Source: Ilyomonas limi
GTDB lineage: Bacteria; Bacteroidota; Bacteroidia; Chitinophagales; Chitinophagaceae
Length of the DNA: 64,000 nt
NCBI RefSeq assembly: GCF_005233845.1
Contig: NZ_SZQL01000015.1
Coordinates: forward strand, 62,001 to 126,000
Direction: 5' to 3'
Part shown: piece after piece, positions 632 to 29,964 of the stretch
Layout of the letters: each line of letters opens with the position of its first letter
How positions within the stretch are numbered: position 1 is the first letter of the stretch
The notes under the pieces: model-generated
Databases searched by the model: none
Seen by the model: the letters and a program-made list of their open reading frames with translations, nothing else
What the model was told of the DNA's origin: nothing
Translations under genes and position numbers: made by a program

Positions 632-3088
632 TTATAGTGTTGTCCTGTTTATATCTGCAACAAGTCTTTTAATACCCTTTTCCATGCTGCCGTACTTTTC
701 AGTATATTCCTGTACTTTCAATTTTTCCCGTTCTTCAGTGGTGTACGTGAAATATTCTTCTGGTGATAATTCGTTCCTATATACTTTCATCACCTGTCCG
801 CCAAGATCAATAAACACCTCTCTATACTTCTTTCCTGGCTCATTGTTACGGTTAACAGACAATAAGATCGTTTTGCCTTTATCAGACAACCCTAAAGCTG
901 CTTGCAAAGCATCGAACTTGTTCATGAACTTTCGCATGTCCATGAGTACTTTAATATCAGCGTTGTTAATGATAGCCTCTTTAATAACCGGCGAGCTAAT
1001 CACATCATCTAATTCTTGTGTAACAACTACTGCTATCCCATTAAACTTTCTAACCGTTTTATACACGTACTTTATAAACTCCGCCATACCAGCCTTTGTT
1101 ATTGCTTTCCATGCTTCTTCTATCACCAATACTTTACGAGCGCCTTTCAGCTTCCTCATTTTTGAAATAAAAAGCTCCATAATAATGAGTGTTACAACAG
1201 GAAACAGTATGGGATGATCCTTAATATTATCCAGTTCAAAAACAATAAACCGTTGTTGCAATAAATCGAGGTTCTCTGTAGCGTTTAGTAAATAATCAAA
1301 TTCACCGTCTTTGTAATACGGTCGGAGAACATATAAAAAGTTATTGATGTCAAAATCCTTTTCTTTCACCCGATGATCTTTCAAAACCAGTACATAAACT
1401 TCTTCCAGGTATTCGTAAAAGGTGTTGAATGAAGGAAAGACATGTTGGTTTTGAAATAACCAGTCATAATATCCCTGCAAGGCATTAGACAAGGCTACAT
1501 ATTCGGCACGATTAAAACTTTCATTTTCCTTTTTCCAAAGGGAGACTAATAGCGCTTTTAAGCTTTCCTTCTTTTCTGTATCCAATGGTTCACCGGCAGC
1601 TATATAAAAAGGATTGAACCGGATGGGGTTTGCTTCGGTATAAGTAAAGTAGTAGCCATTTAATAAGGTACACAGCCCCTTGTAACTGCCTCCGATATCT
1701 ACTATTACTGCGTGAGCACCGGCATCATACAATGAGCGGGACAGGTGATTGGTGAAGACGGATTTACCACCACCTGAGCCACCAACAACAATCATATTCC
1801 GGTTGGTGATAATCCCCCTTTCCATTGGCTCATCAAACAAATCAACGTTTACTGGTCTGCCGTATAAACGCTCAGCCAACCGTATTGAACAATGTTTGCC
1901 ATCCATATAAGCTGTATCACTATTTAGGAAACAGGAGGCCTGATCTGTGAATGTTTCAATTACATGATCTTTCGGTAAATCAGCAGCGTTGCCGGGAATG
2001 CCTGCAAAAAACAACTGTGGTCCACAAACTGTTTCGAACTTTGGAACAGCATCTATTTGTGCAAATGCAGCTCTAACTACTTCAACCTGCATATTTGCTT
2101 CGTTACGGTCCATTGCAATTGTCATTACTGTTACATTCAAAAAGCAAGGTCTTTTACTGTCTGCCGTAAGTTCCTGTAAGTATTCATTAATTGCCTGATT
2201 GGAGATGGCATTTTCACGCGAATACCGGGCAAGTGAAAAGGTATGTCTTGCCTTGCGTTCATTGCGTTGCTTACTTTCGTTTGCACTATGTAAGAGAACA
2301 TATGTAGTGGTGACATGATCCACCGGCAAAAGCATTCCTAAATAAGAAGCATAGCTAACAGGGAATAAGCTCTTATCGGTACTGTATGCGTCATGTGTTA
2401 TCCGGGAAGAACAAAAAGTGGGAAAACTGTTTATATCCGCAAGTGTAAAGAACCGGCAAATAGTATCTCCAATCTTAACTCCCTCTTCCAAATCGATATC
2501 CTTCACTAACGGCTTATATTGATCCCCAATCTGAAACAAGTACTGTTCAATAATACCAGCCCTTTTATCATCACTCAATAACTCACCATCGGTTAATCTT
2601 TGCAATTGTATGCCAGCTTCCTGCATCAATCTTTTGAATTGATTGACGTTGCCTTCCCACTCCTGCAGCAGGTTAGCGCTTATTGTCTGTTCAGGAACAA
2701 CAGAAGAACGAAGCAGGTTATTGAATCCTGAATCAGACATGCGCCTGTTGACAGGCATCTTGACAACACTAATAATACATTCATGTTCAAAATAAGTTCT
2801 GCCATTAAAAAAGGTATTACTGGCTGTTGCTAAAAAGCTCGCTTCTATTGTGTTACCTGAAAAGACTTTCTTTCTGTAATGATCCTGTTGTACAAACAAG
2901 CTATTGTCCGGCAATGAATTAATTGCTTTGATTCTTGCCTGGTTAAGCCTTTCATATTCTTCATTAGAACGGGTTAAACATTCAGGATAAACTGCCCGAA
3001 AAAGAGCAGTAATATCTCCATTCTTTGATGCTATACAATTGTGCTCTACTGTTGCAATCGGAATCTGTTCTTCCAGCCACTTTTCCAT
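632..3088 (-). CDS. traG: Conjugation ATPase TraG (VirB4-like)
   Basis: An 818-residue VirB4-family ATPase that powers the mating-pair channel at the inner membrane. The Walker A motif GGSGGGKS is at residues 436-443 and the Walker B-like VLVIEEAW at 653-660; the N-terminal ~380 residues match the DUF3875-type N-region usual for Bacteroidota TraG. The length (about 800-840) fits the family. Start: ATG four bases after the stop of traF, i.e. tight translational coupling traE-traF-traG. The gene lies in the minus-strand tra run and reads toward the left edge. No frameshift or missing motif was seen. Not to be confused with the VirD4-type coupling protein at 26275-28263, which is also sometimes called TraG. 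Confidence 0.95.
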   Translation of the reverse strand: MEKWLEEQIPIATVEHNCIASKNGDITALFRAVYPECLTRSNEEYERLNQARIKAINSLPDNSLFVQQDHYRKKVFSGNTIEASFLATASNTFFNGRTYFEHECIISVVKMPVNRRMSDSGFNNLLRSSVVPEQTISANLLQEWEGNVNQFKRLMQEAGIQLQRLTDGELLSDDKRAGIIEQYLFQIGDQYKPLVKDIDLEEGVKIGDTICRFFTLADINSFPTFCSSRITHDAYSTDKSLFPVSYASYLGMLLPVDHVTTTYVLLHSANESKQRNERKARHTFSLARYSRENAISNQAINEYLQELTADSKRPCFLNVTVMTIAMDRNEANMQVEVVRAAFAQIDAVPKFETVCGPQLFFAGIPGNAADLPKDHVIETFTDQASCFLNSDTAYMDGKHCSIRLAERLYGRPVNVDLFDEPMERGIITNRNMIVVGGSGGGKSVFTNHLSRSLYDAGAHAVIVDIGGSYKGLCTLLNGYYFTYTEANPIRFNPFYIAAGEPLDTEKKESLKALLVSLWKKENESFNRAEYVALSNALQGYYDWLFQNQHVFPSFNTFYEYLEEVYVLVLKDHRVKEKDFDINNFLYVLRPYYKDGEFDYLLNATENLDLLQQRFIVFELDNIKDHPILFPVVTLIIMELFISKMRKLKGARKVLVIEEAWKAITKAGMAEFIKYVYKTVRKFNGIAVVVTQELDDVISSPVIKEAIINNADIKVLMDMRKFMNKFDALQAALGLSDKGKTILLSVNRNNEPGKKYREVFIDLGGQVMKVYRNELSPEEYFTYTTEEREKLKVQEYTEKYGSMEKGIKRLVADINRTTL

Positions 3089-6281: not shown

Positions 6282-6851
6282 TTAACTCGCGAATTTTGCC
6301 TTGATCTTACTAAGATAAGACTCATCAATATTAAGATAACTTGCAATATATTTAGCCGGAAGTTGCAGCGTGATATCAGGTTGCGTTTCCATCAGCAACG
6401 CGTACCGTTCAGAAGCTGTATTGAGTGAAAGAATACGCTGCCTTTTTTCACTTTCAACATAATATTTCTCCAGTAGAACCGCCCGATGAAAATTGAATTC
6501 GGGATATTTTTTATAAATATCATGCAACTCGGTATAGGTAATTGACCAGGTAATGCTATTGTCAATTGCTTGAATGTACTGGTAACTTTTAATCTGCCGC
6601 AGAAAACTTTCAACAGAAATAACCACATTACCTGCATCCATAAACCAAATGCAAATTTCCTGTTCATCTCTGTCATAAAAGCATCGCACTATACCGGATT
6701 CGAGGAAATGTATGCAGTTACTTACCTGCCCGGCTTGTAAAATATACGATCTTTTCTTGAAGGTATTACGCTTTAATACGCTGTTAAGATGAGTTTGTAA
6801 AGCCGTAGATAATGGCGCAATCGAGTTTAACATCTGAATCAACTTTTCCAT
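6282..6851 (-). CDS. Crp/Fnr family transcriptional regulator (intact copy)
   Basis: A 189-residue regulator of the Bacteroidota Crp/Fnr type: an N-terminal cyclic-nucleotide-binding-like beta-roll (residues ~20-120, including LQAGQVSNCIHFLESGIVR) and a short C-terminal helix-turn-helix (LPAKYIASYLNIDESYLSKIK) at the end. The frame is open to 6875, but the Met at 6851 lies at the same place as the conserved Met in the paralogue at 7316-7888, so that start is preferred. The effector-binding residues of true cAMP receptors are not obvious. It lies downstream of an XRE gene (6930-7169) in a two-gene module that is duplicated immediately to the right. Confidence 0.85.
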   Translation of the reverse strand: MEKLIQMLNSIAPLSTALQTHLNSVLKRNTFKKRSYILQAGQVSNCIHFLESGIVRCFYDRDEQEICIWFMDAGNVVISVESFLRQIKSYQYIQAIDNSITWSITYTELHDIYKKYPEFNFHRAVLLEKYYVESEKRQRILSLNTASERYALLMETQPDITLQLPAKYIASYLNIDESYLSKIKAKFAS

Positions 6852-6929
6852 ACAACACAATTCCTTTTCACTCAAAATATTAATAAAGGTTAGCTTGTTT
6901 TCGAAGGAAGTAGGAAAGAAAAATGTCCA

Positions 6930-7169
6930 TTAAGGAAGCAAATCTTTTGGATTCACATTCAGTGCCTGAGCAATGAGAGGCAGATAAGAGAGACTACAAT
7001 TCACCTTGCCAAGTTCTATACGGTTGATCTGGCTATCAGGAATCCCGCAATCAAAGGCTAATGAAGCTTGTGTGATGTCTTTTGATAGCCTGATTTCCCG
7101 AATCCTTAAGCCAACCGCTGAAAGAAAACCATCGTCTCTGTAATATCTATTTGAAACTGCTTTTGGCAC
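6930..7169 (-). CDS. XRE-family helix-turn-helix protein (module copy A)
   Basis: A 79-residue single-domain DNA-binding protein. The HTH occupies residues ~22-76: IREIRLSKDITQASLAFDC, then recognition-helix residues IPDSQINRIELGKV, ending NVNPKDLLP. It is paired with the Crp/Fnr gene at 6282-6851, about 80 bp away on the same strand. A second XRE gene of the same layout (NxRYYRD near the start, EIRLSKDI, PxDLLP ending) lies at 7968-8213. Small XRE proteins of this kind regulate their own cargo modules in ICEs; the target here is unknown. Confidence 0.85.
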   Translation of the reverse strand: MPKAVSNRYYRDDGFLSAVGLRIREIRLSKDITQASLAFDCGIPDSQINRIELGKVNCSLSYLPLIAQALNVNPKDLLP

Positions 7170-7315
7170 ACTTCAAAAAGAAAGCAAGAAAGGAGTATAA
7201 AAAAGAGCGAATTCGCCTTGATTTTAAAATTTATTTATAGAAGCCATTTTAGAAAACGAGCAAAGCACCGTTGACACAGCCTTATTGGTTGATATACCTA
7301 TTGATAAATATTAAG

Positions 7316-7888
7316 TCAGTTAGCGTTTTTCTTTATGCTGCTTAATTAAACCTCATCAATATTTAAATAGGTCTGGCTATGTATTTAGAGGGGAAGTAAA
7401 ATATCATTTATAATTTCCAGTAATTGAGTATACTGGTCTCATGCAGAATTGAGTGAAAGCATTCGCTGCCATTTTTTACTTGCTACAAAGCATTTCTCGA
7501 TAAGAGTGGCCCGGTGTAGATTAAATTCCGGGTACCTCTTGTATATATCCTGTAGTTGCTGATAGGTAATAGACCACGTAATACAATCTTCTACAGCCTG
7601 GATGTATTGACTACTCTTAACCTGACGCATAAAGCTCACTGCTGATATTACTACATTTCCAGCCTGCATGAACCATATATTTATTTCCTGAGCACCATTG
7701 TAGTAGAAACCCCGCACCAAACCTAATTCTATGTAATGAATACAGTTGCTTACTTGTCCTGCCTGCAGCAAGTAGGAATCTTTTTGAAAGCTGTTCCTTT
7801 TAAGAATATGCTGTAGATGGCTCTCGAGTGCAGGCGATAACGGCGATATGCTGTTTAATAACTGAAGTACCTTTTCCATACAACACAT
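7316..7888 (-). pseudogene. Crp/Fnr regulator pseudogene with three in-frame stops (module copy B)
   Basis: From the ATG at 7886-7888 the frame matches the intact Crp/Fnr paralogue (6282-6851) to residue ~150 (CCMEKVLQLLNSISPLS versus CCMEKLIQMLNSIAPLS; AGQVSNCIHY in both). It then meets a TGA at 7439-7441. Reading on in the same frame, the homology continues (D-QYTQLLE, then YLNIDE, then LSSIKK versus LSKIKA) through a TAA at 7385-7387 and a TAA at 7346-7348, and ends at a TGA at 7316-7318. That is 191 codons against 190 for the intact gene with no frameshift, so this is a full-length copy killed by nonsense mutations. The truncated product of ~149 residues would lack the HTH. Confidence 0.85.
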
Positions 7889-7967
7889 TTTCTATTTGTT
7901 ATAAAATATCGAAGTAAGTTGGAGGAATATAAATGGTAGGCGATGTTGATCTGTAACCCTTTCCATA

Positions 7968-8213
7968 TTACAACGGCGGAAGTAAATCCCTTGGAGCAAC
8001 CTTTAAAACTTCTGCAATCCGATATAGCATAGACATACTAAAATTAACCTTCCCATGTTCCATCCTGCTTATTTGACTGTCATCCACCTTGCATTCTTTT
8101 GCAAGCACTCCGATGGAAATATCTTTAGATAATCTTATTTCTTTCATTTTGGCTCCAATGAATGCCAGCAGTTGCTCATCCCTATAATATCTCTGTGAAT
8201 TACTTTTTACCAT
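7968..8213 (-). CDS. XRE-family helix-turn-helix protein (module copy B)
   Basis: An 81-residue HTH protein (MKEIRLSKDISIGVLAKEC, then VDDSQISRMEHGKV, ending APRDLLPPL). It is clearly a diverged paralogue of the protein at 6930-7169, with the same RYYRD N-terminus and the same spacing to a downstream Crp/Fnr gene. Its Crp partner (7316-7888) is broken, yet this reading frame is intact, suggesting it still has a job such as autoregulation or control of the divergent hsd operon, whose promoter starts about 230 bp to the right. The latter is inference from position. Confidence 0.85.
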   Translation of the reverse strand: MVKSNSQRYYRDEQLLAFIGAKMKEIRLSKDISIGVLAKECKVDDSQISRMEHGKVNFSMSMLYRIAEVLKVAPRDLLPPL

Positions 8214-8442
8214 ATACCAAAGAGATGAAATTCAAATAACTTGTACAAGGGAGAATACTCCCTATTTTTTTAATCTTTAGCATTACTAATTGTGTGGAAT
8301 TCATTCACTTTTAGCTCGAAATACCCTTTTTATTTCTTTCAGAATAGACCTTAATAAGCAAGTCCTAAGGACCGAGTTAAATAAAACTTTACTATTCTTA
8401 AGTAGTAATCACAAATTTTGTATATTCCCTACTTAAAAATAA

Positions 8443-8474
8443 TTTTGAAACTATAATTACTTTTTGCATCTTTG
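8443..8474 (+). promoter_or_regulatory. Probable Bacteroidota promoter of the type I RM operon
   Basis: TTTTG at 8443-8447 (the -33 element of Bacteroidota promoters is TTTG/TTG) is followed after 19 bp by CATCTTTG at 8467-8474, one mismatch from the -7 consensus TAnnTTTG. Transcription would start about 8480, with the first gene beginning at 8499. The rest of 8214-8442, between the divergent XRE gene and this promoter, shows nothing I can name. Confidence 0.5.
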
Positions 8475-8498
8475 TAGCTGTATTACAAAGGAAAAAAT

Positions 8499-9068
8499 TT
8501 GAAACTAAACTTAGAAAATATAGCAATACTTCAAACTGGCGTCTTTGCAAAACCGGTAAAGAGTGGTGAGATTGCTTATTTACAAAGTAAACATTTTGAT
8601 GAAAATGGACAATTGACATCTGTCCTTTATCCGGATTTGAAGCCGAATAACCAAACAAATAGGCATTTGCTCAAACCTGGTGACGTTTTGTTTGCCGCCA
8701 AGGGATTAAAGAATTTTTCAACATTATATGAAAGCATGGATATCCCTGCAGTCGCATCTACCTCATTTTTTGTCATTCGTTTACAGGAAAATTTTCAAAG
8801 CAAAGTATTACCGGAGTATCTCGTTTGGTTTTTAAATCAGCCTGCCTCCATGCAATTCTTAAAAGGGAAAGCTACAGGTACTTCTCTTCCTTCTATATCA
8901 AAAACAACTTTGGAGGAGTTACAAATTTCAGTTCCTGATTTAAAAACACAGAAAATAGTTTTAAAAATTGCACAATTGAAAGACCAAGAAAAAAGATTAA
9001 AAGCTGAGCTTGAAATTCTTATAGAAAAGAAGATGCAACAACAGATTATTAATGCCATAAACAAATGA
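8499..9068 (+). CDS. Half-length type I restriction specificity subunit (HsdS-like, one TRD)
   Basis: A 189-residue protein with a single target-recognition domain (residues ~1-150, including GDVLFAAKG and the GTSLPSISKTTLEELQISVP boundary motif) and one C-terminal coiled-coil conserved region (KTQKIVLKIAQLKDQEKRLKAELEIL). Normal HsdS has two of each (about 400-450 residues). Half-HsdS proteins can work as homodimers or exchange half-sites. The start is a TTG at 8499 with a purine-rich AAAGGAAAAAA just before it; no ATG fits. It opens a plus-strand operon, and its stop is one base from the next ATG. A second, full-length HsdS follows at 12270-13583. DNA recognition function is from the family; the target is unknown. 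Confidence 0.8.
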   Translation: MKLNLENIAILQTGVFAKPVKSGEIAYLQSKHFDENGQLTSVLYPDLKPNNQTNRHLLKPGDVLFAAKGLKNFSTLYESMDIPAVASTSFFVIRLQENFQSKVLPEYLVWFLNQPASMQFLKGKATGTSLPSISKTTLEELQISVPDLKTQKIVLKIAQLKDQEKRLKAELEILIEKKMQQQIINAINK

Positions 9069-9069
9069 T

Positions 9070-9324
9070 ATGAAGATAGATATACCATGTCCAAGCTGCG
9101 GTTGCCAGTATTGCGAAGCAACCACTAAATCAGGTGAAAAGGTGCAGATTGAAATATGCAGGTGTAACGATGGAAGCGGTGAGTTTGAAGTCGCAATAAT
9201 ACATGCCACTTCCGCGAATCCGGTTTATGAAAAGCATCAATGTTCTGAAACTGATATAGCAAACTGCCTTGCTTCCAGATTTGATATTAATTTAAACAGT
9301 ATGAATCATCAATGCTTTAACTAA
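9070..9324 (+). CDS. Cys-rich small protein (zinc-ribbon-like) in the RM operon
   Basis: An 84-residue protein with six cysteines in its first 32 residues: CPSCGCQYC at 7-15 and CRC at 30-32. This suggests a zinc ribbon or similar metal knuckle. The rest has no recognisable fold. The start codon follows the half-HsdS stop by one base, and the stop is 6 bp before hsdM, so it is translated with the RM genes. I know no such component of standard type I RM enzymes. It might be an accessory DNA-binding factor or an inhibitor, but nothing in the sequence proves it. Confidence 0.7.
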   Translation: MKIDIPCPSCGCQYCEATTKSGEKVQIEICRCNDGSGEFEVAIIHATSANPVYEKHQCSETDIANCLASRFDINLNSMNHQCFN

Positions 9325-9330
9325 TACACA

Positions 9331-10896
9331 ATGGTCAAAATAACTCAAAAAGATATCAACGATGCAGTTTGGAAAGCTTGCGATACGTTTCGCGGCAGTA
9401 TAGATCCCAGCATATACAAAGACTATGTGCTTACGATGCTGTTTATTAAGTACCTCAGCGATGTACATGATGATAAATTGGAAGCGTACCGCCAAAAATA
9501 TAACAACGATGAAGAAAGGGCCAGGCGTGCCATGAAGTATGAACGCTTTGTGGTGCCAGAACATAGCCATTTTAAATATTTGTTTGACCACCGCAATGAA
9601 GCCAATATAGGTGAGTTGATTGATATTGCTCTGGAGGATTTGGAAGAGGCTAACCGGGAGAAATTGTATAGTGAAGACGGCATAGGCATTTTCCAAAATA
9701 TCAGCTTCAACAGTAGTGTTCTGGGGGATACAAAAGATAAAAATACAAGACTAAAGAACCTATTACTTGACTTTAATAAAAATAGTCTTGACCTGCGACC
9801 ATCGCATCTGGCAGGTACTGATATAATTGGTGGTGCCTACATGTTCCTGATTGAAAACTTTGCCAGCGATGCCGGTAAAAAAGCGGGTGAGTTTTTTACC
9901 CCAAAAGAAGTTTCAACACTTATTGCCAAACTTACCAAGTCCGCCCCCGGCTCACGTATTTGTGACCCCACCTGCGGCTCTGCATCACTTTTAATTAAGG
10001 CGGGTGAGGAAGTTGGTTCGGATAATTTTTCGCTGTACGGGCAAGAGGCTAATGGCAGTACATGGGCATTAGCAGTGATGAATATGTTTTTGCATGGCTT
10101 TGATAATGCTACTATCCGTTGGGGCGATACTATCCGTAATCCAAAGCTAAAGGAGGGCGATGCACTAATGAAGTTTGATACGGTAGTGGCCAATCCGCCT
10201 TTTAGCTTAGATAAATGGGGAAAGACAGAAGACAGGGAAGAGAATAAGTCAGCAGATAGCTTCGACCCTGAAACGGATAAATATAACCGGTTTTGGCGTG
10301 GAATACCACCAAAAAGTAAAGGCGATTGGGCTTTTATCAGTCACATGATTGAGACGACTTATGAAGGCACCGGCAAAGTAGGCGTGGTGGTGCCGCATGG
10401 TGTATTGTTTCGTAGTGCCAGTGAAGGAAAGATAAGGCAGAAAACCATCGAGGAAAACATATTGGAAGCAGTTATTGGGCTACCTGCCAACCTGTTTTTT
10501 GGTACCGGCATACCTGCCGCAATCATGATTTTTAATAAAGGCAAAGGAGACAATAAGAACGTGTTGTTTATTGATGCCAGTAAGCATTATGAGAGTGCCA
10601 AGAACCAGAACCGGCTTCGCGAACAGGATATTAGCCATATCGTTGATACTTACAGGAAGTTTAATGCAGGGCAATTGCAGCCCGGTTTAGTAGAAGCCAG
10701 GTTTAGCTATGTAGCCACTTTTGAACAAATAAGAGAGAATGAATTTAACCTTAACATTCCCCGGTACGTAGACACCTTTGAAGAAGAAGCCGAAGTAGAT
10801 ATTGCAGCGGTACAAAAAGAGATTGACCGACTGGAGGATGAATTGAAAACAGTACAGGCAGAAATAGCAAAATATTTAACCGAACTCACATCTTAA
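9331..10896 (+). CDS. hsdM: Type I DNA methyltransferase subunit HsdM
   Basis: A 521-residue N6-adenine methylase. SAM-binding motif I appears as DPTCGSASLL (residues 212-221) and the catalytic motif IV as NPPF (288-291). The N-terminal HsdM helical domain (residues ~10-150) and a C-terminal coiled coil (EIDRLEDELKTVQAEI) that contacts HsdS are present. Length is typical of HsdM. With HsdS it methylates the host recognition sites; with HsdR it forms the restriction complex. It lies between the small Cys-rich protein and the Fic gene, with gaps of 6 and 4 bp. No defects seen. Confidence 0.96.
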   Translation: MVKITQKDINDAVWKACDTFRGSIDPSIYKDYVLTMLFIKYLSDVHDDKLEAYRQKYNNDEERARRAMKYERFVVPEHSHFKYLFDHRNEANIGELIDIALEDLEEANREKLYSEDGIGIFQNISFNSSVLGDTKDKNTRLKNLLLDFNKNSLDLRPSHLAGTDIIGGAYMFLIENFASDAGKKAGEFFTPKEVSTLIAKLTKSAPGSRICDPTCGSASLLIKAGEEVGSDNFSLYGQEANGSTWALAVMNMFLHGFDNATIRWGDTIRNPKLKEGDALMKFDTVVANPPFSLDKWGKTEDREENKSADSFDPETDKYNRFWRGIPPKSKGDWAFISHMIETTYEGTGKVGVVVPHGVLFRSASEGKIRQKTIEENILEAVIGLPANLFFGTGIPAAIMIFNKGKGDNKNVLFIDASKHYESAKNQNRLREQDISHIVDTYRKFNAGQLQPGLVEARFSYVATFEQIRENEFNLNIPRYVDTFEEEAEVDIAAVQKEIDRLEDELKTVQAEIAKYLTELTS

Positions 10897-10900
10897 CACA

Positions 10901-12280
10901 ATGATTTACCCCGAAAAAAGACAGCAGGTAGATGAACTCCAGCAAAAAATAAATGCTTATGGAGAGTTAAGGGCTACAGTTAAAAAGAAGATTAACTATA
11001 AGTTCAGGCTCGACTGGAACTACTACAGCAATAGTATGGAAGGCAATACCCTTACTATGGAAGAGACCCGTAGTGTAATGGTAGGCAACCTTACTGTTGG
11101 AGGCAAACCTATAAAAGATGTGCTGGAGATAAAGGGACATGATGAAGTAATAAGCGAGATACTGCGGATAGGCAAAAGCGAAGTGCGGCTTTCTGAAAGA
11201 AGGATACGCGATATACATAAAGGTATTATGTATGAAGAAAATGAAACAGAGCGGGAGAAAATAGGCAAATGGAAAACGGAACCAAACTATGTTATCAATT
11301 ATAAGGGGGAAAGATTTGATTTTGCTCCGCCTGCAGATGTACCAGAACTTATGCATGAGTTATTGAATAGAACCAATGCAGCTATTGATGCCATTCAGCA
11401 GGGAAAGAAGGATGCGCCGCACCCGCTGGATGTAGCCTTACAGTTTCATTTGGATTATGTGCTCATTCATCCTTTTTACGACGGTAATGGCAGAACAGCA
11501 CGGATACTTACCAATTTACTACTGATCTCTTTTGGTTATCCACCGTTTTGGATAAATACCGGCGAACGAAAAATATATAACCAGTACATAGCCGATATAC
11601 AGGGGTATGGAGGTAGCCCTGACTTGTTTTATGATTTTGCAGCCGGCTTGGTATTGCGATCACAGCAAATAATATTAGATGCAATTAATGGCAAGAGTAT
11701 AGAAGAAGATGATGATACTGATAAGCAGATAGAATTATTCAAAAGGTCTTTAAGCAAAAAGAATGAAAGTAATAAAATAAGAGCACTTGAACATATACAT
11801 TCTATTCTAACCCATTCTGGTGTTTATTTAATTGAAAGGCTAATTAAGACCTTATCAAGGTTTAATGATTTGTTCCATAAAACAGAAACCCGCTTTATAT
11901 TTTCAAATCAGGAAGGAAAATTTTACGACATAAGAAAAAGAATGGAGGGTTATATGCGCGCGATAGATGAGCAATTTCCAGACTCATTTGTGAACTGGAT
12001 TGAAAAAAAAGGCAATCTGGATTTCATAAGTTTCGGAATTGAATTTTATTGGGAGGGATATAAATTATCTACGCCGCCTTTTAATGTAGGTGTTTACGTG
12101 TACTTCAGATTTGATAATTATTCCTATCAAATTTTACGTGATACAACTTTTAACGATACTGACAATTACTTTGAATGCAGTTACGAAGAACAACTTGCAA
12201 AAGAAGATATAAACTTAATTGTATCAAAAGTTGCCAATGATATTATTAACGAAATAAAAGAAAAGCACCTTGAATTCTAA
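10901..12280 (+). CDS. Fic-domain protein (AMPylase-type) inside the RM operon
   Basis: A 459-residue protein with the Fic active site HPFYDGNGRTAR at residues 190-201, a complete HxFx(D/E)GNGRxxR motif. An autoinhibitory motif of the (S/T)xxxE(G/N) type, SNSMEGN, is at residues 43-49, which marks it as class II with the inhibition helix in front of the Fic domain. The family transfers AMP (or another nucleotide part) to hydroxyl groups of target proteins. The C-terminal ~200 residues are not recognised. It lies between hsdM and hsdS and overlaps the hsdS start by 11 bases. Fic genes occur repeatedly inside type I RM operons, but their role there is not known to me. Confidence 0.92.
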   Translation: MIYPEKRQQVDELQQKINAYGELRATVKKKINYKFRLDWNYYSNSMEGNTLTMEETRSVMVGNLTVGGKPIKDVLEIKGHDEVISEILRIGKSEVRLSERRIRDIHKGIMYEENETEREKIGKWKTEPNYVINYKGERFDFAPPADVPELMHELLNRTNAAIDAIQQGKKDAPHPLDVALQFHLDYVLIHPFYDGNGRTARILTNLLLISFGYPPFWINTGERKIYNQYIADIQGYGGSPDLFYDFAAGLVLRSQQIILDAINGKSIEEDDDTDKQIELFKRSLSKKNESNKIRALEHIHSILTHSGVYLIERLIKTLSRFNDLFHKTETRFIFSNQEGKFYDIRKRMEGYMRAIDEQFPDSFVNWIEKKGNLDFISFGIEFYWEGYKLSTPPFNVGVYVYFRFDNYSYQILRDTTFNDTDNYFECSYEEQLAKEDINLIVSKVANDIINEIKEKHLEF

Positions 12281-13583
12281 TCGCAACCATTTGCAAAGCA
12301 TAAAGACTTTTTACACCACAACTGTTCCAAGCGATTGGGATACCCCTGAGTTTGGTAAAGAATTTTATTTTCTAAAAACATTTTCACACTCACGAGAGCA
12401 ATTGACCAGCAAAAAAACTGAGGATGAAATCTACAATATTCACTACGGAGATATTCATGCAACATTTAAAAATAAAATTGTAGACTTCGAAATTGAGGAG
12501 TTCATTCCATTTTTAGCTGATGGATTGATAAGGGAAGAAAGTATTAGAAATAGCGAATTTCCGGCCCTAAAAGACGGCGATTTAATTATAGCTGATGTTT
12601 CCGAAGATTACGCAGGTATTTGTGGCTGTATAGAGTTGAAAAATGTTAACGGAAGAAAGGTGATTGGTGGTTTACATACGTTTGCAGCAAGAGCAAACGA
12701 AAGTAGTATTGCATTAGGCTTTAGAGCATATGTGTTAAGTCATCAACAGGTAATTAGAGAGTTGCGAAGAATAGTAACTGGGACTTCCGTAAATGGTATT
12801 TCTAAAATAGGCCTTTCAAAGTTAAAAATTGCTCTCCCACCTCTTGCAGAACAAAAAGCAATAGCTCACATCTTGAGTTTAATGGATAGCTCAATTACCA
12901 GTAACAATCTTCTCATTACTCAAAAAGAACTTCGCAAAAAATGGATGGTGCAGAACCTATTAACAGGTAAGATAAGGCTAACGGGGTACACTAAAGATTG
13001 GGAAAACAAAACTTTAAAAAAGCTTGTTACTCCTGTTAAAAGAGCACTCAATCCGATTCAAGATGAATTATACCAACAAATAGGAATTCGTTCCCATGGA
13101 AAAGGTTTATTCTATAAAGAGAAAGTTACCGGAGCAGCACTTGGCAATAAAAGTGTTTTTTGGGTAGAGCCAAATTGCTTTATTGCAAATATTGTTTTTG
13201 CATGGGAGCATGCAGTTGCAAAAACAACCGAAGCAGAAACAGGCATGATTGCTTCTCATCGCTTTCCAATGTTTAAGCCAAAAGAAGGAGTGCTTCATTT
13301 AGACTATTTGCTGTACTTCTTTAAATCTTCACGTGGCAAACAATTGCTTGAGCTTGCTTCTCCTGGTGGTGCCGGGAGGAACAAAACATTAGGACAATCA
13401 GAGTTTTTAAAGCTCAATATACCTGTACCCTCATATGAAGAACAAACAGCTATTGCGCAAGTGTTATTAGCAGTTGATAAAGAGTTGCAACTGCTTAAAG
13501 CAAAAACTGAAAAGCTTAAAGAGCAAAAGAAGGGTATGATGCAGGTGCTTTTGACGGGAAAGAAAAGACTAAAAATTACATAA
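12270..13583 (+). CDS. hsdS: Type I restriction specificity subunit HsdS (full length)
   Basis: A 437-residue specificity subunit with two target-recognition domains (about residues 15-190 and 245-395), each followed by a conserved helical spacer: PPLAEQKAIAHILSLMD then a coiled coil to LLTGKIRLTGYT, and PSYEEQTAIAQVLLAVD then a coiled coil to VLLTGKKRL. Together with HsdM and HsdR it sets the DNA target, probably a bipartite site. The start is a TTG at 12270 within the last codons of the Fic gene, which implies coupled translation; a downstream ATG would cost part of the first TRD. It coexists with the half-HsdS at 8499-9068, so the locus could make alternative enzymes. Confidence 0.93.
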   Translation: MNSNRNHLQSIKTFYTTTVPSDWDTPEFGKEFYFLKTFSHSREQLTSKKTEDEIYNIHYGDIHATFKNKIVDFEIEEFIPFLADGLIREESIRNSEFPALKDGDLIIADVSEDYAGICGCIELKNVNGRKVIGGLHTFAARANESSIALGFRAYVLSHQQVIRELRRIVTGTSVNGISKIGLSKLKIALPPLAEQKAIAHILSLMDSSITSNNLLITQKELRKKWMVQNLLTGKIRLTGYTKDWENKTLKKLVTPVKRALNPIQDELYQQIGIRSHGKGLFYKEKVTGAALGNKSVFWVEPNCFIANIVFAWEHAVAKTTEAETGMIASHRFPMFKPKEGVLHLDYLLYFFKSSRGKQLLELASPGGAGRNKTLGQSEFLKLNIPVPSYEEQTAIAQVLLAVDKELQLLKAKTEKLKEQKKGMMQVLLTGKKRLKIT

Positions 13584-13586
13584 TAA

Positions 13587-15155
13587 ATGAAAGTAGCAGC
13601 GAGACTATCTAAACCAAATGTAGCTGTAAAACAGCTATTACGAGCTACAAGTTCCTTAACAGGTCCCATTATGGACTGGGGTGGTATTAAAGGAAGCGAA
13701 CTATATCATGGAACCTCTTATGCGGGGCAGCCAAGCTGGATAAATTTTATCTTAACAGGCACTAATTCATCACTACCGGCATTAAAGAACGAAGGAGCAG
13801 CAGCATTGTTGTTTATTCCAATTAACAATCGTTACATAATGTTCTGTTTTGGATATAGTAACCAACATTTATCTGGATTTGGAATTGAAAGAGATTTCGG
13901 GTTAAGAGTAGTTTTAAATACTGTTGATCCTTCTAAAATCAAAAGTATTGATTCCAAGATTATGGGTTCTGTTGTTATGAACAGGCGTACACAATTAAGT
14001 AAAGAAAACAGAATTGAGGATTTTGGATTTGAAGTTAATAAGGATTTTTTAAGGCATGTCGCAGGTAAACCTACTACAAGCAGCTTTGCTTCTGCTATCG
14101 CAGGATCAGATAGCTTAAATATGAATTGTGATTTAAACGTAAGAAATTTACAGACAAAGGTTACTGATATTTACAACTATTATACTGCTACTAATTATCA
14201 AACTAACTACAGTTGGGTTGACAATATAAAAAATGTCAAAGACGGATTTTTGTTGCCAAGTTTAGATAATGATTTACTCACCTCATTTAACAATCTACTT
14301 TCAGGCAGTCCTTCTAATTTATATATCGCTTGTCCAGAAGTTGTGGATTATACAACTCTTGCTTATTTCAAATTAACTGGTTATCGCTCAAATACAACTT
14401 TCGGCTTTATTGAAGTTGAAAGTTTAGTAGCCGATCTTCAATTAAAAGGTATAACATCTATCACAATCAAAAACTTAGAAAATTTTAGAATAGAAGCTTT
14501 TGATAATGATGATAATTTTTTGAATAGCTGGTCTTTAAAGGATTGGATTGTATATGAGAGCATAATAAGTGGTACACAATACATTTTTTCTGAAGGTGAA
14601 TGGTTTGAAATAAGTTCAAATTATTTTAATTTAGTAACCAGTAGTGTTAATTCAATTCTTTCCCACCCAACGGAATACTTATCACTTACTCCCACACCTC
14701 ATAAGAATGAGGCTGATTATATTAAAAGCTATACTGCACAGCGCGGGCATGAAAAAATATTTGATCGTAGCTTATCCTATACTTATGGTACAACCAATGC
14801 AATTGAGATATGTGATATATACAATTCAACAAAAGAGTTCATTCATATAAAAGAAGGTAGTTCTTCCAACAAGCTAAGCCACTTGTTCAACCAAGGATTT
14901 GTTTCTGCCTCGTTACTTCTTAATGATTCAAATTTCAGAACAGATTTAACATCAAAATTAAAAGGTTATACAACACTCTTAAAAACAATAATTAATCCGA
15001 TTAACTCTACAAAATATACTGTCGTATACAGAATATTAAGAAATGGATCTGCGTTTTCACTTCCATTTTTTTCAAAGATTGTTCTAATCGATACACATAA
15101 AAAGATAAAATTAATGGGCTTTAAATTCAGATTAGAATGGGTTCCAAAAATATAG
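13587..15155 (+). CDS. TIGR04141/DUF6119 sporadically distributed protein
   Basis: A 522-residue protein matching, from memory, the TIGR04141 family (DUF6119). Visible family signatures are the N-terminal WINFI region, then GIERDFGLRVVLNTVDPSK (residues ~109-127), RRTQLSK, an IEDFGFEVNKDFLR stretch, a GSDSLNMNCDL segment and a YSWVDNIKNVKD motif. The family is widespread but patchy and often sits in restriction or other defence loci; its biochemical role is not established as far as I know. It begins 4 bp after hsdS and ends 4 bp before hsdR, so it is firmly inside the RM operon. AT content is higher than in hsdM/hsdR, hinting at separate acquisition. Confidence 0.85.
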   Translation: MKVAARLSKPNVAVKQLLRATSSLTGPIMDWGGIKGSELYHGTSYAGQPSWINFILTGTNSSLPALKNEGAAALLFIPINNRYIMFCFGYSNQHLSGFGIERDFGLRVVLNTVDPSKIKSIDSKIMGSVVMNRRTQLSKENRIEDFGFEVNKDFLRHVAGKPTTSSFASAIAGSDSLNMNCDLNVRNLQTKVTDIYNYYTATNYQTNYSWVDNIKNVKDGFLLPSLDNDLLTSFNNLLSGSPSNLYIACPEVVDYTTLAYFKLTGYRSNTTFGFIEVESLVADLQLKGITSITIKNLENFRIEAFDNDDNFLNSWSLKDWIVYESIISGTQYIFSEGEWFEISSNYFNLVTSSVNSILSHPTEYLSLTPTPHKNEADYIKSYTAQRGHEKIFDRSLSYTYGTTNAIEICDIYNSTKEFIHIKEGSSSNKLSHLFNQGFVSASLLLNDSNFRTDLTSKLKGYTTLLKTIINPINSTKYTVVYRILRNGSAFSLPFFSKIVLIDTHKKIKLMGFKFRLEWVPKI

Positions 15156-15158
15156 TTT

Positions 15159-18100
15159 ATGCAAACGCCATCTTTCAAAGAAGATCATATCAGCCAGATA
15201 CCTGCCTTGCAAATGTTGCAAAAGCTGGGTTATACCTATCTAAGCCCGGAAGAGATAGATAAGATTCGCGGAGGTAAAACAACCAATATATTGCTGGATG
15301 AAATTTTGAGAAAGCAGCTAAAGGAAATTAATGCCCAAAAGCGGATTAGCTCTACTAAAACAACCTATATCAGCGATGCAAATGTTGAGAATGCAATACG
15401 AGCATTGAAGGAATTACCCTTGAACGAAGGATATATTGCTGCCAGTGAAACGGTTTATAACATTCTTACTTTAGGTAAAACTTTTGAACAAAGCTTTGAC
15501 GGAGAAATCAAAAGTATTTCTGTACAATACATTGATTGGAAAAACATAGAAAACAATGTTTTTCATGTGGCGGAAGAATTCAGTGTAACACGCAGTACCA
15601 GCAAAGAGCATTATATACCCGACCTGGTTTTATTTGTAAACGGCATTCCGCTTTGCATTATGGAGTGCAAACGTCCAAACATGAAGGAGCCATTGGCACA
15701 GGCAATCAGCCAGCACTTACGCAATCAACAATCTGATGGCATACGTTCCTTGTATGTTTATTCGCAGTTGATCTTAGCATTAAGTTGCAACAATGCTTTG
15801 TATGCGACTAACGGCACACCAGAAAAGTTTTGGGCACATTGGGAAGAAAAATTTCAAAGTGATGAGGAGGCAGCAGCATACAGGAATACTTTAGAAATGA
15901 TCAAAAACCAGCCACTTACACCCGCTCAAAAAGATAAATTGTTTGCTGATCGCTTCAGGTACGTTAGGCAGTACTTTGATGAACTGAAAAAAGAGATTGT
16001 ACTACCGACTATTCAGGATGAATATCTATATGGCCTATGCCGGCCAGAAAGGTTGATGGATATTGTATTCAACTTTATTTTATTTGACAATGGTGAGAAA
16101 AAGGTTGCCCGTTATCAGCAGTATTTCGCCATTAAAAAAGCAATGCAGCGTATCCTTCAAATTAAGGATGGCAAAAGAGAGGGCGGTGTTATATGGCATA
16201 CACAAGGCAGTGGTAAATCTTTAACTATGGTAATGCTTGCACAAGCAATTGCTATGGAGCCATCTATTCGCAATCCAAAAATTGTTTTGGTAACAGACAG
16301 AACTGATCTTGATAACCAAATAACAGGCACATTTAAAAAGTGTGGCAAGTTTGTAGAGAATGCTACTACAGGGCAACGCTTGCTGGATTTGTTGGAAAGC
16401 AAAAGTGACGCGGTAGTTACCACCATCATTAATAAGTTTACTGCTGCAGTAAAGAAAATTAAGCAACCGCTGCTCAGTCATGACATATTTGTGCTGGTTG
16501 ATGAAGGGCACCGAACGCAGCATGGAACCTTTAACATTGAAATGCAAAAAACATTGCCGAATGCCTGTTTTATTGCTTTGACGGGAACCCCCCTGTTTAA
16601 AAAGGATAAAAGCACAGCAGCAAAATTCGGAGGTATTATTGATACATACACCGTTGATACGGCAGTTAAAGATAAAGCAGTTGTTCCGCTATTGTATGAA
16701 GGAAGATTGGCAAGGCAGCTTGTGAATGAAGCTCCGCTGGATACATTCTTTGGAATGGTATCGGAACCATTAACTGAATACCAGAAAGCAGACTTTAAAA
16801 AGAAATTTAGCCGTGCAGACCAGTTAAATAGTGCAGAACAAAAGATATATGCCATAGCATGGGACATTAGCAGGCATTTTCGTAACAACTGGCAAGGAAC
16901 GCCGTTTAAAGCGCAATTAGTATGTGACAAAAAGTTAAATGCTATCCGGTTTAAGGAGTTCCTGGATGAAATAGGTATTGTAAGCAGCGACGTATTAATT
17001 TCTTCTATTGATGAAAGAGAGGGTGAGGATAGTGCTTATGAGAAGTCATCCGAAAAGGAAAATAAGTTCTGGAAAAGAATGATGGATGAACATGGAAATG
17101 CAAAGACGTATGAAAAGAATATCATCAACAGATTTAAAAATCAAAAAGACCCGGAAATCATAATTGTAGTGGACAAGCTGCTTACCGGTTTTGACGAACC
17201 TAAGAACACTGTTTTATACCTTGCCAGAAATTTACAAGGGCATAAACTTTTACAAGCGATTGCAAGGGTGAATCGTGTCTATCCGGATAAAGAATTTGGA
17301 TACATTATTGACTACTATGGTGTAATAAAAAACCTTGATGATGCGTTAATGCTTTACTCTGCCCTTGAGGACTTTGATGAAGAAGATTTGGAAGGTACAC
17401 TTGTGAATATTTCGGATGAGATAAAAAAGCTTCCTCAAAAACATTCGGAACTGTGGGATATTTTCAAAACAATAGCTAATAAAAGGGATGCAGAAGCTTA
17501 CCAAGTACTGCTGAAAGATCAGGCTATACGAGTTGTATTTTATGATAAGCTGGCAGCTTTTGCCAAAAGTTTAAAGCTGGCACTTTCTTCTATTCAATTT
17601 CACAAGGAAACAGATGAAAGGCTACTTGATCGGTACAAAGAGGATTTAACCATGTTTCTGAAGCTAAGAATAGCAGTGATTGAACGATATAGTGATCAGG
17701 TAGATTATAAACAATATGAAGGTCAAATACAAAAGTTGATTGATACACATGTTACGAGCGAGAAGGTAGAGACTATAACTGAATTGGTCAACATCTTTGA
17801 TAAAGAGAAGTTTCAGCAGGAAGTTGAAAACACTACTGGAAAGGCAGCTAAAGCAGATAAGATTGCAAGCAGAACAGCCAAACACATCTCAGAGAAAATG
17901 GAGGAAGATCCTGCTTTTTATAAAAAGTTTTCGCAGATGCTAAAGGAAACTATCTCTGAGTATGAAGCAAACCGCTTAACCGAAACACAGTATTTGAAAC
18001 AAGTTCAAAAAATAATGAATAATGTATTGGCGCACACTGATATAGATGTACCTGAAGCTTTAAAAGATAAAGACATAGCTAAAGCATTCTATGGATTAAC

Positions 18101-18386
18101 AGTTGAGTCGTTACATGAGAAATTGCAAGATCCTGTTGTTTTGAGGGAGGTAGCAACTCAGGTTGCATTACAAGTTGATGAATATATCAAAGATGCAGTT
18201 TTGGAAAATAGCAAGCCTATTATAGATTGGCAAAATAAAACAAGTATTACTGGTAAACTGGTAATTGAAATCGGAGACTATTTGATTGATGAAGTAAGAG
18301 ACAAATACCATATCCATTTATCGTTTAGCGAGATGGACGAGATTGCCAATAAATATATTGGGGTTGCAAAAATCCGTTATAAGTAA
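15159..18386 (+). CDS. hsdR: Type I restriction subunit HsdR
   Basis: A 1075-residue translocating restriction subunit. The N-terminal nuclease has the PD-(D/E)XK elements IPDLVLF (Asp 155) and MECKRP (Glu 169, Lys 171). The motor has Walker A GSGKS at 350-354, the DEAD-like box VDEGHRTQ around 447-454, motif III ALTGTP and motif VI QAIARVNR. The C-terminal ~300 helical residues would bind the HsdM/HsdS core. Length is typical. The complex cuts unmodified foreign DNA after ATP-driven translocation. Tight spacing to the TIGR04141 gene (4 bp) and overlap of the stop (TAATG) with the next gene show a single transcription unit. All motifs look intact. Confidence 0.96.
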   Translation: MQTPSFKEDHISQIPALQMLQKLGYTYLSPEEIDKIRGGKTTNILLDEILRKQLKEINAQKRISSTKTTYISDANVENAIRALKELPLNEGYIAASETVYNILTLGKTFEQSFDGEIKSISVQYIDWKNIENNVFHVAEEFSVTRSTSKEHYIPDLVLFVNGIPLCIMECKRPNMKEPLAQAISQHLRNQQSDGIRSLYVYSQLILALSCNNALYATNGTPEKFWAHWEEKFQSDEEAAAYRNTLEMIKNQPLTPAQKDKLFADRFRYVRQYFDELKKEIVLPTIQDEYLYGLCRPERLMDIVFNFILFDNGEKKVARYQQYFAIKKAMQRILQIKDGKREGGVIWHTQGSGKSLTMVMLAQAIAMEPSIRNPKIVLVTDRTDLDNQITGTFKKCGKFVENATTGQRLLDLLESKSDAVVTTIINKFTAAVKKIKQPLLSHDIFVLVDEGHRTQHGTFNIEMQKTLPNACFIALTGTPLFKKDKSTAAKFGGIIDTYTVDTAVKDKAVVPLLYEGRLARQLVNEAPLDTFFGMVSEPLTEYQKADFKKKFSRADQLNSAEQKIYAIAWDISRHFRNNWQGTPFKAQLVCDKKLNAIRFKEFLDEIGIVSSDVLISSIDEREGEDSAYEKSSEKENKFWKRMMDEHGNAKTYEKNIINRFKNQKDPEIIIVVDKLLTGFDEPKNTVLYLARNLQGHKLLQAIARVNRVYPDKEFGYIIDYYGVIKNLDDALMLYSALEDFDEEDLEGTLVNISDEIKKLPQKHSELWDIFKTIANKRDAEAYQVLLKDQAIRVVFYDKLAAFAKSLKLALSSIQFHKETDERLLDRYKEDLTMFLKLRIAVIERYSDQVDYKQYEGQIQKLIDTHVTSEKVETITELVNIFDKEKFQQEVENTTGKAAKADKIASRTAKHISEKMEEDPAFYKKFSQMLKETISEYEANRLTETQYLKQVQKIMNNVLAHTDIDVPEALKDKDIAKAFYGLTVESLHEKLQDPVVLREVATQVALQVDEYIKDAVLENSKPIIDWQNKTSITGKLVIEIGDYLIDEVRDKYHIHLSFSEMDEIANKYIGVAKIRYK

Positions 18387-19081
18387 TGATTGATTATATT
18401 GAATTTGGTTCAAAGAAAATAGGTTTTCATTTAGTGTATTCTAATCGAAAATCTTTAGGCATTACCGTTACATCAGACTTAGCGGTTATTGTAAAAGCAC
18501 CAGTTAATACATCCATCAATAAGATAAGGGAAAAACTGTATAATAAAGCATCCTGGATAATAAAACAACAAAGCTTTTTTTTATCCTTTCAACCTAAAAC
18601 ACCTGAAAAAAAGTATATAGCAGGTGAAACTCATTTATATCTTGGCAGGCAATATCGTTTGAAAATTGAACAAGGAAATGAGGAATCTGTAAAGCTGAAA
18701 GGAAAATTTCTTGTAGTAATCACAACCTCACAATCACGATCTAAGCAATTAATAAGAAAGTGGTATCTAAATAATGCTAAGTTGAAATTTCAATTGATAT
18801 CTCAACCGCTTATTCATAGGTTTAGAAAACATGGTGTTGAGCCATCGTCTATTGTTTTGCGCGAAATGCCCACACGATGGGGAAGTTGCACACCTAAAGG
18901 AAAAATCATTTTGAATCCTGAATTAATAAAGGCACCAAGAGGTTGTATAGAGTATGTGATTATTCATGAATTGTGTCATTTGATACATCGTGACCACACG
19001 CAAAAATTTATAGACTTACAAGTTAAAGAAATGCCTGACTGGCAGCAATGGAAGATGAAGTTGGAAAAATTGCTGGCATAG
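18386..19081 (+). CDS. YgjP-like M48-type metallopeptidase (DUF45)
   Basis: A 231-residue zinc metallopeptidase of the YgjP/DUF45 (WLM-like) family. The zinc motif HELCH is at residues 194-198 with a further His at 204 (HRDHTQKF), preceded by the family signature RWGSC at 164-168 and NPELI at 177-181. The start codon overlaps the hsdR stop (TAATG), so it is the last gene of the RM operon. Genes of this family are frequently found behind type I RM genes; a role in processing a restriction component has been supposed but is not known to me. The operon appears to end here, with about 590 bp of non-coding sequence after it. Confidence 0.9.
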   Translation: MIDYIEFGSKKIGFHLVYSNRKSLGITVTSDLAVIVKAPVNTSINKIREKLYNKASWIIKQQSFFLSFQPKTPEKKYIAGETHLYLGRQYRLKIEQGNEESVKLKGKFLVVITTSQSRSKQLIRKWYLNNAKLKFQLISQPLIHRFRKHGVEPSSIVLREMPTRWGSCTPKGKIILNPELIKAPRGCIEYVIIHELCHLIHRDHTQKFIDLQVKEMPDWQQWKMKLEKLLA

Positions 19082-24625: not shown

Positions 24626-25018
24626 GTGATGAGCGAAACAAAAAAGAACCATTCCAAATGGCTGCATATCCGGTTGAAAGAAGAAGAATACAATAAGATT
24701 CACAAAAAGTTTGAGGCATCAACTTGCCGCAAACTAAGTGAATACGCAAGGCGAATTCTGCTCGATAAAGTGGTTACCATAAATCAGCGCAACCAATCCC
24801 TCGATGCCTTTATGGCAGAAATGATTCGCTTACGAAATGAGCTGCACAATGTTGAAAACAACTTTAATCAGGCAGTAAAAAAACTACACACATTACAAAA
24901 AATAGATGAATTTAAATCATGGCTTTTGCTTTATGAAACAACAAGAAAAATGTTGCTTGAAAAAGTGGAAAACATAAAACAAAAAATAGCTCAAATTTCC
25001 GACAAATGGTTGCAATAG
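24626..25018 (+). CDS. Relaxosome accessory protein (MobB/MobC-like)
   Basis: A 130-residue basic protein. The N-terminal ~50 residues look like a ribbon-helix-helix DNA-binding fold (KWLHIRLKEEEYNKIHKKFE, then RKLSEYARRILL), and the rest is a long coiled coil. This is the form of plasmid mobilization relaxosome proteins that bind oriT and load the relaxase. The end overlaps the relaxase start by 13 bases, showing translational coupling. Naming differs between elements (MobA, MobB, MbpA, MobC), so no symbol is given. Confidence 0.85.
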   Translation: MMSETKKNHSKWLHIRLKEEEYNKIHKKFEASTCRKLSEYARRILLDKVVTINQRNQSLDAFMAEMIRLRNELHNVENNFNQAVKKLHTLQKIDEFKSWLLLYETTRKMLLEKVENIKQKIAQISDKWLQ

Positions 25019-29912: not shown

Positions 29913-29964
29913 AATAATAGTTTAAATAATATTCGTTTTGTAATCATAAGTAGGCAAATACTTC

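Follow-up and report, generated by a model that had tools for sequence, protein, structure and literature searches.

The window analysed here, a stretch of 64,000 nucleotides from Ilyomonas limi (contig NZ_SZQL01000015.1, positions 62,001 to 126,000), carries at 8499-19081 eight complete open reading frames (ORFs) on the + strand that center on a type I restriction-modification (RM) system, in the order halfS-mini-hsdM-fic-hsdS-DUF6119-hsdR-ygjP. Comparison with related loci suggests that this type of operon probably consists of a constant frame, made up of a half-HsdS (halfS), HsdM, HsdS, HsdR and YgjP, and of exchangeable genes, many of them defence genes, that occupy the junctions of the frame as a second layer. 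We refer to the junctions between hsdM and hsdS (M-S) and between hsdS and hsdR (S-R) as bays. The window's genes for a Fic protein, a DUF6119 (TIGR04141) protein and a Cys-rich mini-protein are cargo and not part of the frame.

The frame was traced through HsdR. At E ≤ 1e-100, HsdR matches are found in 33 of 395 genomes of the same phylum, including the window's own, and the loci of 30 of the 32 others were retrieved; the two left out (G334 and G530) are both partial matches. Several of these loci end at contig borders or at the borders of the retrieved stretch, and halfS and YgjP were counted only where at least 800 bp lie beyond hsdM or hsdR. Wherever the stretch is long enough, the genes follow the order halfS, hsdM, bay, hsdS, bay, hsdR, ygjP, apart from one disturbed locus (L152). 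YgjP follows hsdR in all 29 testable loci (split across two frames in L137), with a junction of -4 to +6 bp in the 23 loci measured, and halfS precedes hsdM in 19 of 20. The exception is again L152, which yet has a halfS-like match; beyond these 20 loci, L046 and L050 were likewise scored as lacking halfS despite such matches, and so was the plasmid locus L156.

Other type I loci of the phylum, represented by 40 controls picked by hand from the match list and counted with no filter for complete flanks, contain no halfS (0/40) and rarely YgjP (3/40). An HsdM tree (FastTree, with long-branch warnings) separates 63 rows of the lineage from the 40 control rows by a branch of support 99. The same arrangement is found outside the phylum. 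Among 69 loci from a genome scan for DUF6119, 26 are collinear (halfS-hsdM-hsdS-DUF6119-hsdR-ygjP), all from Pseudomonadota by record titles. On plasmids, we examined twelve loci chosen by HsdR from 443 records (349 from Klebsiella; 60 listed), beside four already viewed. An annotated SprT-family protease follows hsdR in all twelve, a small annotated S subunit precedes hsdM in eight, one (L156) has a like-sized unnamed ORF in that place (594 bp, 'hypothetical protein') and three have none; eleven of the twelve carry a further gene between frame genes. Taken together, the frame keeps its order both in the window's phylum and in Pseudomonadota.

The bays differ in how much they hold. Across the HsdR-selected loci of the phylum, the M-S gap has a median of 1,056 bp and reaches 4,186 bp (n=23), the S-R gap has a median of 2,810 bp and reaches 8,534 bp (n=27), and the halfS-hsdM gap has a median of 3 bp (n=19). 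In L032, L041, L043 and L051 this last junction is filled by a protein of 101-105 aa, GIY-YIG-like by eye (no Pfam match in L041), and it is thus a third cargo position. From 60 loci, 30 selected by HsdR and 30 by DUF6119 (26 genome loci and four plasmids), we collected 151 cargo ORFs on the frame strand, which together with the three window genes form 69 clusters. Fifty representatives were scanned with Pfam, where some have no match, and 20 with PADLOC; the 20 were hand-picked, partly on their Pfam matches, and the 18 that match PADLOC models therefore represent a biased rate. The families recognised are CBASS cyclases, a 2TM effector, a SAVED-HNH effector, Pycsar PycC, Shedu SduA, QatA, QatB, QatC and Gabija GajA, along with the PADLOC candidates (PDC) PDC-S02, S04, S05, S06, S13, S14, S22 and S39. 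Scores reach 952 bits for GajA, 739 for PycC, 633 for a CBASS cyclase, 432 for QatA and 224 for SduA, and a RhuM cargo protein scores 447 bits with PDC-S05. A DUF3800 and a Schlafen-type cargo protein have no PADLOC match at the threshold used. One S-R bay (L141) spans 8.5 kb and ten ORFs, including QatA, QatB, QatC, Fic and a RhuM-cluster protein.

Bay genes are replaced even between close relatives. Compared with the window, the loci L125, L126 and L218 (HsdR 80%, 79% and 71% identical) keep halfS, HsdM, HsdR and YgjP and differ in what the bays contain. L125 has a similar Fic gene in the M-S bay, and its S-R bay holds an unidentified gene, a CBASS cyclase, a 2TM effector and another Fic; L126 has another gene set than the window, and L218 has two CBASS-like cyclases, a patatin-like gene and a Schlafen-type gene, all named from their likeness to cargo elsewhere. 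At the DNA level, the window and L125 align over halfS, over hsdM plus the beginning of fic (as far as 11725) and over hsdR-ygjP, and neither over hsdS nor over the S-R bay. Relative to L125, where halfS and hsdM lie 2 bp apart, the mini-gene is additional DNA. A similar pattern is seen between plasmid loci L019 and L020, in which halfS, HsdM, HsdR and YgjP are 93-97% identical and the DUF6119 proteins only 33%. Judged by family matches, these comparisons show that putative defence genes are embedded in a type I RM operon and are exchangeable between relatives.

This pattern bears on how the accessory genes were first interpreted. The preliminary description of the window had treated the eight genes as one translationally coupled unit, and tight junctions together with the constancy of halfS and YgjP would fit a single integrated machine, with each accessory protein modifying or regulating the RM enzyme. 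We regard such a machine as highly improbable, in that Fic, DUF6119 and the mini-protein are not conserved with the frame; halfS and YgjP are the only accessory genes that accompany hsd. The proposed neighbourhood comparison consequently divides the set, with halfS and YgjP tracking hsd, Fic and DUF6119 exchanged, and DUF6119 often found with no hsd gene nearby. Fic and DUF6119 thus show the distribution independent of hsd that had been named as speaking against a functional link. The accompanying idea of a back-up response fits, because recognised defence modules or components (CBASS, Pycsar, Shedu, Qat, Gabija) occupy the same bays in relatives.

Several observations weigh against the division into frame and cargo. 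The hsdR-ygjP pair occurs with no halfS in L160 (Deinococcus), L162 and L163, and L162, a Klebsiella plasmid, has no cargo. A locus from the window's own family (L217, G001:C21) consists of hsdR and ygjP (77% and 69% identical), with no halfS, hsdM or hsdS match within the 17.5 kb retrieved; the pair may outlive the rest of the operon, as in L217. Both the activity of the cargo and its co-transcription with the frame are, moreover, predictions. Embedding is also general among type I operons. After dropping loci where a complete ordered hsdM-hsdS-hsdR is absent from the stretch (eight of the 40 controls and, counting the window, eight of the 31 target loci), more than 300 bp lie in at least one junction in 27 of 32 controls, compared with 23 of 23 loci here. 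The idea that this lineage is unique in having cargo was discarded on these counts. What differs is the amount: the median junction cargo is 3,912 bp in the lineage vs 1,772.5 bp in controls (Mann-Whitney p 1.8e-4), and both junctions exceed 300 bp in 16 of 23 vs 7 of 32 (Fisher p 7e-4), although the control stretches cover about 8 kb on each side of hsdM and were processed by a different gene-finding method, so that control cargo is possibly understated.

Such widespread embedding (27/32 controls) would also be expected if the cargo had entered a permissive operon by chance and brought no benefit under selection. We consider this quite improbable on three counts. No ORF of at least 120 aa runs against the frame between the first frame gene and hsdR in 28 of the 30 HsdR-selected loci (the exceptions being L136 and the disturbed L152), the cargo matches defence families in 18 of the 20 hand-picked representatives, and the motifs of Fic and DUF6119 are intact.

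Within the frame, halfS is constant in presence and variable in sequence. It is less than 60% identical in 24 of 50 pairs whose HsdR proteins are at least 90% identical; the same holds for hsdS in 52 of 63 pairs, for hsdM in 0 of 63 and for ygjP in 1 of 47. The divergent pairs had suggested a swapped second specificity subunit, a possibility set aside on the regional profile. HalfS retains 52-74% identity in all nine segments (42 pairs), whereas in hsdS eleven of 14 segments are 12-28% identical, one is 39% identical and two are conserved (77% and 84%). Since its divergence is even along its length, unlike that of hsdS, halfS evolves fast as a whole and shows no exchange of target-recognition domains. 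The same profile lacks the domain swaps expected if halfS served as a reservoir from which recombination, of the shufflon or inverton type, switches the specificity of HsdS. While both proteins have Methylase_S domains and the window's pair is 27% identical across 110 aa, the operon contains no repeats shared by halfS and hsdS, and in none of 49 loci is halfS 50% identical to its own hsdS over at least 60 aa; we give a reservoir hardly any credence. HalfS may act as an extra S-type subunit or as a regulator. Separately, HsdM and halfS were considered as components of the methylation-associated defence system (MADS; MAD2/MAD5 equivalogs) and rejected, with scores of 46.2 vs a cut-off of 720 and 23.4 vs 400.

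The other constant accessory gene, ygjP, encodes the sole PF01863 match in its genome (5.88 Mb, 70 contigs). Its HExxH motif is intact, as in 47 of 48 YgjP rows of the lineage, and it scores 25.4 bits against the SprT-like family PF10263, just below the cut-off of 25.6. In type I families IA and IB, ClpXP is described, in the parts of the sources consulted, as destroying HsdR during restriction alleviation (PMC12707154, PMC4231737). We infer that YgjP may be a dedicated SprT-like protease for restriction alleviation acting on HsdR. Among the matches listed in a literature search for YgjP or SprT-type peptidases with hsdR, no title concerns the pairing; PMC5587805, taken up as a DUF45/YgjP paper, actually concerns 'DUF450'.

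The DUF6119 protein is assigned with Pfam and NCBIfam scores above the curated cut-offs over nearly the whole model and has no PADLOC match at E ≤ 0.001. It is present in nine of 294 genomes of the window's family, the window included, and none of the eight others has an hsd match near it (stretches of 13.7-19.9 kb, with the window's hsd proteins as queries). Of 24 plasmid records with DUF6119, the eight examined include four with the gene in a bay (hsdM is broken in L018), one with it beside a separate RM operon and three without. First plasmid matches had suggested an obligate link between DUF6119 and RM, which was abandoned as copies with no nearby hsd genes proved common. In a FastTree phylogeny of 79 proteins (31 in a bay and 48 not, four of the eight same-family copies included; long-branch warnings), we count 11 changes between bay and free-standing positions, of which at least eight are forced by branches of support ≥95. 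The nearest kin of the window's protein is encoded by a 48% identical gene with no hsd match nearby, and a further relative is flanked by two integrase genes close to the end of a record for a Pseudomonas phage (BK061476.1, 38564-40060; L219). Because of these repeated changes, the free-standing kin and the phage copy between integrases, DUF6119 behaves as mobile cargo.

Its likeliest function is that of a nuclease-like effector, as judged from a predicted structure. The AlphaFold model of the whole protein has a pLDDT of 84.9 and a pTM of 0.80, and that of the C-terminal domain (residues ~350-522) a pLDDT of 91.6 and a pTM of 0.89. The top structural neighbours of this domain are HamA (Z 7.8, root-mean-square deviation (rmsd) 4.1, 144 residues aligned), CdiA-CT (7.5, 3.8, 134), EcoT38I (6.1, 3.4, 105), Can2 (6.0, 3.6, 114) and BglII (5.0), and SduA matches the whole model (Z 4.7, rmsd 4.7, 137 aligned). 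HamA, SduA, CdiA-CT, EcoT38I and Can2 have folds that we take to be those of PD-(D/E)XK nucleases, and the domain is thus predicted to be PD-(D/E)XK-like, with a histidine replacing the usual D/E: the (D/E) position of the D...(D/E)xK motif reads H (HxK). Residues E375, E407, D410 and H420 are invariant in 53 of 53 sequences, and K422 and Q436 in 52. Against this assignment, the best fold matches all stay below Z 8, with a background of up to 5.5 for the unrelated CD38, and Foldseek returns nothing at E ≤ 0.001 for either model. DUF6119 differs from Hachiman HamA in its motif, with HxK in place of an apparent ExK (judged from a PDB entry titled for the mutant E138A,K140A), and from HamA and the other PD-(D/E)XK nucleases in its N-terminal part, for which RdgC (Z 4.1) is the only neighbour among the matches listed in the whole-model comparison. 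A literature search on TIGR04141 and DUF6119 returned nothing relevant, and PMC13092281 does not mention DUF6119.

The Fic protein in the M-S bay is characterised by its motifs. Class II Fic proteins are defined by HPFx(D/N)GNGR together with an N-terminal inhibitory (S/T)xxxE(G/N) motif; the window's protein has HPFYDGNGR at 190 and SNSMEG at 43 and by these motifs would be a class II Fic AMP-transferase. The catalytic and the N-terminal inhibitory motif are both retained in each of the 11 Fic proteins that were checked, among them that of the window (a twelfth cluster member, a 62-aa fragment, lies outside the check). The Cys-rich mini-protein has no Pfam, NCBIfam or PADLOC match at E ≤ 0.001, and its homologues are confined to its own genome among 390 of the phylum, with none in phages or plasmids.

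An auto-inhibitory motif in every embedded Fic protein checked is compatible with a guard of the PrrC type, in which Fic and/or DUF6119 would be kept inactive by the RM complex and freed when a phage inhibits or bypasses restriction. We judge this unlikely. Unrelated systems (CBASS, Shedu, Gabija and Qat) are found in the same bays and are not known to need an RM partner; DUF6119 moreover occurs with no hsd match nearby in all eight other genomes of the family that encode it, as far as the window's hsd queries reach. In favour of a guard, PrrC, embedded in ecoprrI, is reported to stay sequestered in the RM complex until infection by T4 sets it free (PMC3874165, PMC12707154, in the parts consulted). 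The sections covered of the TgvAB study similarly report that embedded TgvAB protects 10-100-fold less against several phages without its type I host operon (PMC11411939), a finding that also counts against self-sufficient cargo; embedded genes therefore need not be fully independent.

Under the preferred reading, a constant frame with exchangeable cargo, one promoter would drive all eight genes. HsdM, HsdS and HsdR would methylate self DNA and cut unmodified DNA, and halfS would join HsdM as an additional S-type subunit. The cargo would add a second layer, for the most part independent in its action, with Fic as an auto-inhibited AMP-transferase that would arrest the cell once inhibition is relieved and DUF6119 as a nuclease-type effector. 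Coupled to HsdR in translation, YgjP would most likely remove HsdR complexes or promote their turnover, as built-in restriction alleviation or clearing of DNA roadblocks. More tentatively, and with considerable doubt, the lineage may represent a distinct class of type I RM in which halfS evolves fast along its length without domain exchange and an HsdR-coupled SprT-like protease serves as a built-in safety device. This device would allow the operon to spread with mobile elements and to house several foreign defence systems in complete form, DUF6119 being a new nuclease effector among them.

The points that are likely new are the split into frame and cargo across a lineage, the constancy of YgjP and halfS, and DUF6119 as a probable nuclease-type effector. 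Guilt-by-embedding is reportedly the subject of a 2024 preprint by Payne et al., which may already list this operon type. The analysis separates genes that travel with the RM system (halfS, YgjP) from those it carries (Fic, DUF6119 and others), and makes two questions testable, namely what a restriction operon needs a SprT-like protease for and whether other immune systems use RM operons as platforms for their expression. New effectors may also be sought in the junctions of this lineage, where DUF6119, for one, has no PADLOC match.

The layout of the window's operon (Table 1) bears out the preliminary description in its outline: all eight genes are complete, lie on one strand and are tightly packed, with junctions of +1, +6, +4, -11, +3, +3 and -1 bp from 5' to 3', and the layout is compatible with one transcription unit. 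The description had also placed halfS and the mini-gene between the hsd genes; both precede hsdM, and only fic (M-S) and DUF6119 (S-R) lie inside. In the ORF call used, halfS and hsdS start with TTG. Pfam matches cover seven of the eight proteins, the mini-protein being the exception, and NCBIfam equivalog or subfamily models are matched above cut-off by HsdM, DUF6119 and HsdR. By Pfam, NCBIfam and the translations, HsdM, HsdS and HsdR are all present with intact motifs. In a pattern scan the only terminator-like site of the + strand lies upstream (8248-8263) and none falls within the operon, which agrees with a single transcript. A sigma-70 pattern scan, which covers no other promoter type, finds no + strand site in 8200-8498 and yields fewer sites than shuffled sequences, which makes it uninformative.

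Table 1. Features of the operon in the window (bit scores with cut-offs where given)
Feature	Position	Strand	Basis
Possible operon promoter	8440..8498	+	Intergenic, upstream of halfS; Bacteroidetes-like -33/-7 pair by eye
halfS, 189 aa, one HsdS-type domain; lineage-constant	8499..9068	+	PF01420 Methylase_S 31.6 bits (cut-off 22)
Cys-rich mini-protein, 84 aa, orphan; extra gene in halfS-hsdM junction	9070..9324	+	No family match
hsdM	9331..10896	+	N6_Mtase 325.7 bits; TIGR00497 263.4 (cut-off 242.75); NPPF motif in translation
Fic protein, class II by motif; M-S bay cargo	10901..12280	+	PF02661 67.2 bits; PADLOC PDC-S04 103.9 bits
hsdS, two specificity domains	12270..13583	+	PF01420 68.9 bits, 2 stretches
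DUF6119/TIGR04141 protein; S-R bay cargo	13587..15155	+	PF19614 459.2 bits (cut-off 27); TIGR04141 416.4 (cut-off 35)
hsdR	15159..18386	+	HSDR_N 127.1, SWI2_SNF2 260.2, TIGR00348 469.8 bits; PD...ECK, GSGKS, DEGH in translation
ygjP, YgjP-like/SprT-like zinc metallopeptidase; 1-bp overlap with hsdR; lineage-constant	18386..19081	+	PF01863 183.4 bits; HELCH

The operon probably sits on an integrative conjugative element. The surrounding region (632-36601) contains genes for a TraG P-loop ATPase (632-3088), a relaxase (25006-26253) and a YWFCY-type coupling protein (26275-28263), and a tyrosine integrase gene (35052-36278) lies near a tRNA-Asp (36527-36601). These families of mobile-element genes would fit a placement in the Bacteroidota. 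We further note a CBASS-like operon on the - strand (28767-33196), with a DncV-like cyclase, an E2-E1 fusion protein and an HNH-SAVED effector. Just upstream of the RM operon, also on the - strand (6282-8213), are two copies of a pair formed by a small helix-turn-helix regulator and a Crp-like protein (labels partly by eye), which resemble a tandem duplication with a shorter second Crp-like ORF; the nearer helix-turn-helix protein (7968-8213) has a weak likeness to RM control proteins (PADLOC 35.1 bits).

Embedding in type I operons has been published for DarTG2 with an M48 peptidase in enteropathogenic E. coli (EPEC) (PMC12255303), for TgvAB (PMC11411939) and for PrrC (PMC3874165, PMC12707154), all consulted in part. 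Closest to the window is the EPEC RRDM island, which in the sections covered has the order rptR-hsdM-hsdS-darT-darG-hsdR-M48 and likewise places a defence module between hsdS and hsdR, a site its authors call a potential recombination hotspot, and a metallopeptidase (M48-family) after hsdR (PMC12255303). Unlike the window, it begins with the repressor rptR, has no half-HsdS among the seven ORFs described there, and fills one bay (DarTG2). TgvAB, in the type I cluster of V. cholerae VPI-2, resembles the window in placing defence genes inside a type I operon; it differs as a type IV GmrSD-like pair, and the sections covered mention neither YgjP nor a half-HsdS (PMC11411939). EcoprrI shares a latent effector gene within a type I operon (PMC3874165, PMC12707154, as far as consulted), whereas its effector PrrC, an anticodon nuclease, is kept in the grip of the RM complex. 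The PADLOC candidates are themselves reported to come from guilt-by-embedding (PMC12988326); the window's Fic matches PDC-S04 and RhuM cargo matches PDC-S05, while DUF6119 matches none. The operon is thus an elaborate form of a known arrangement rather than a new machine.

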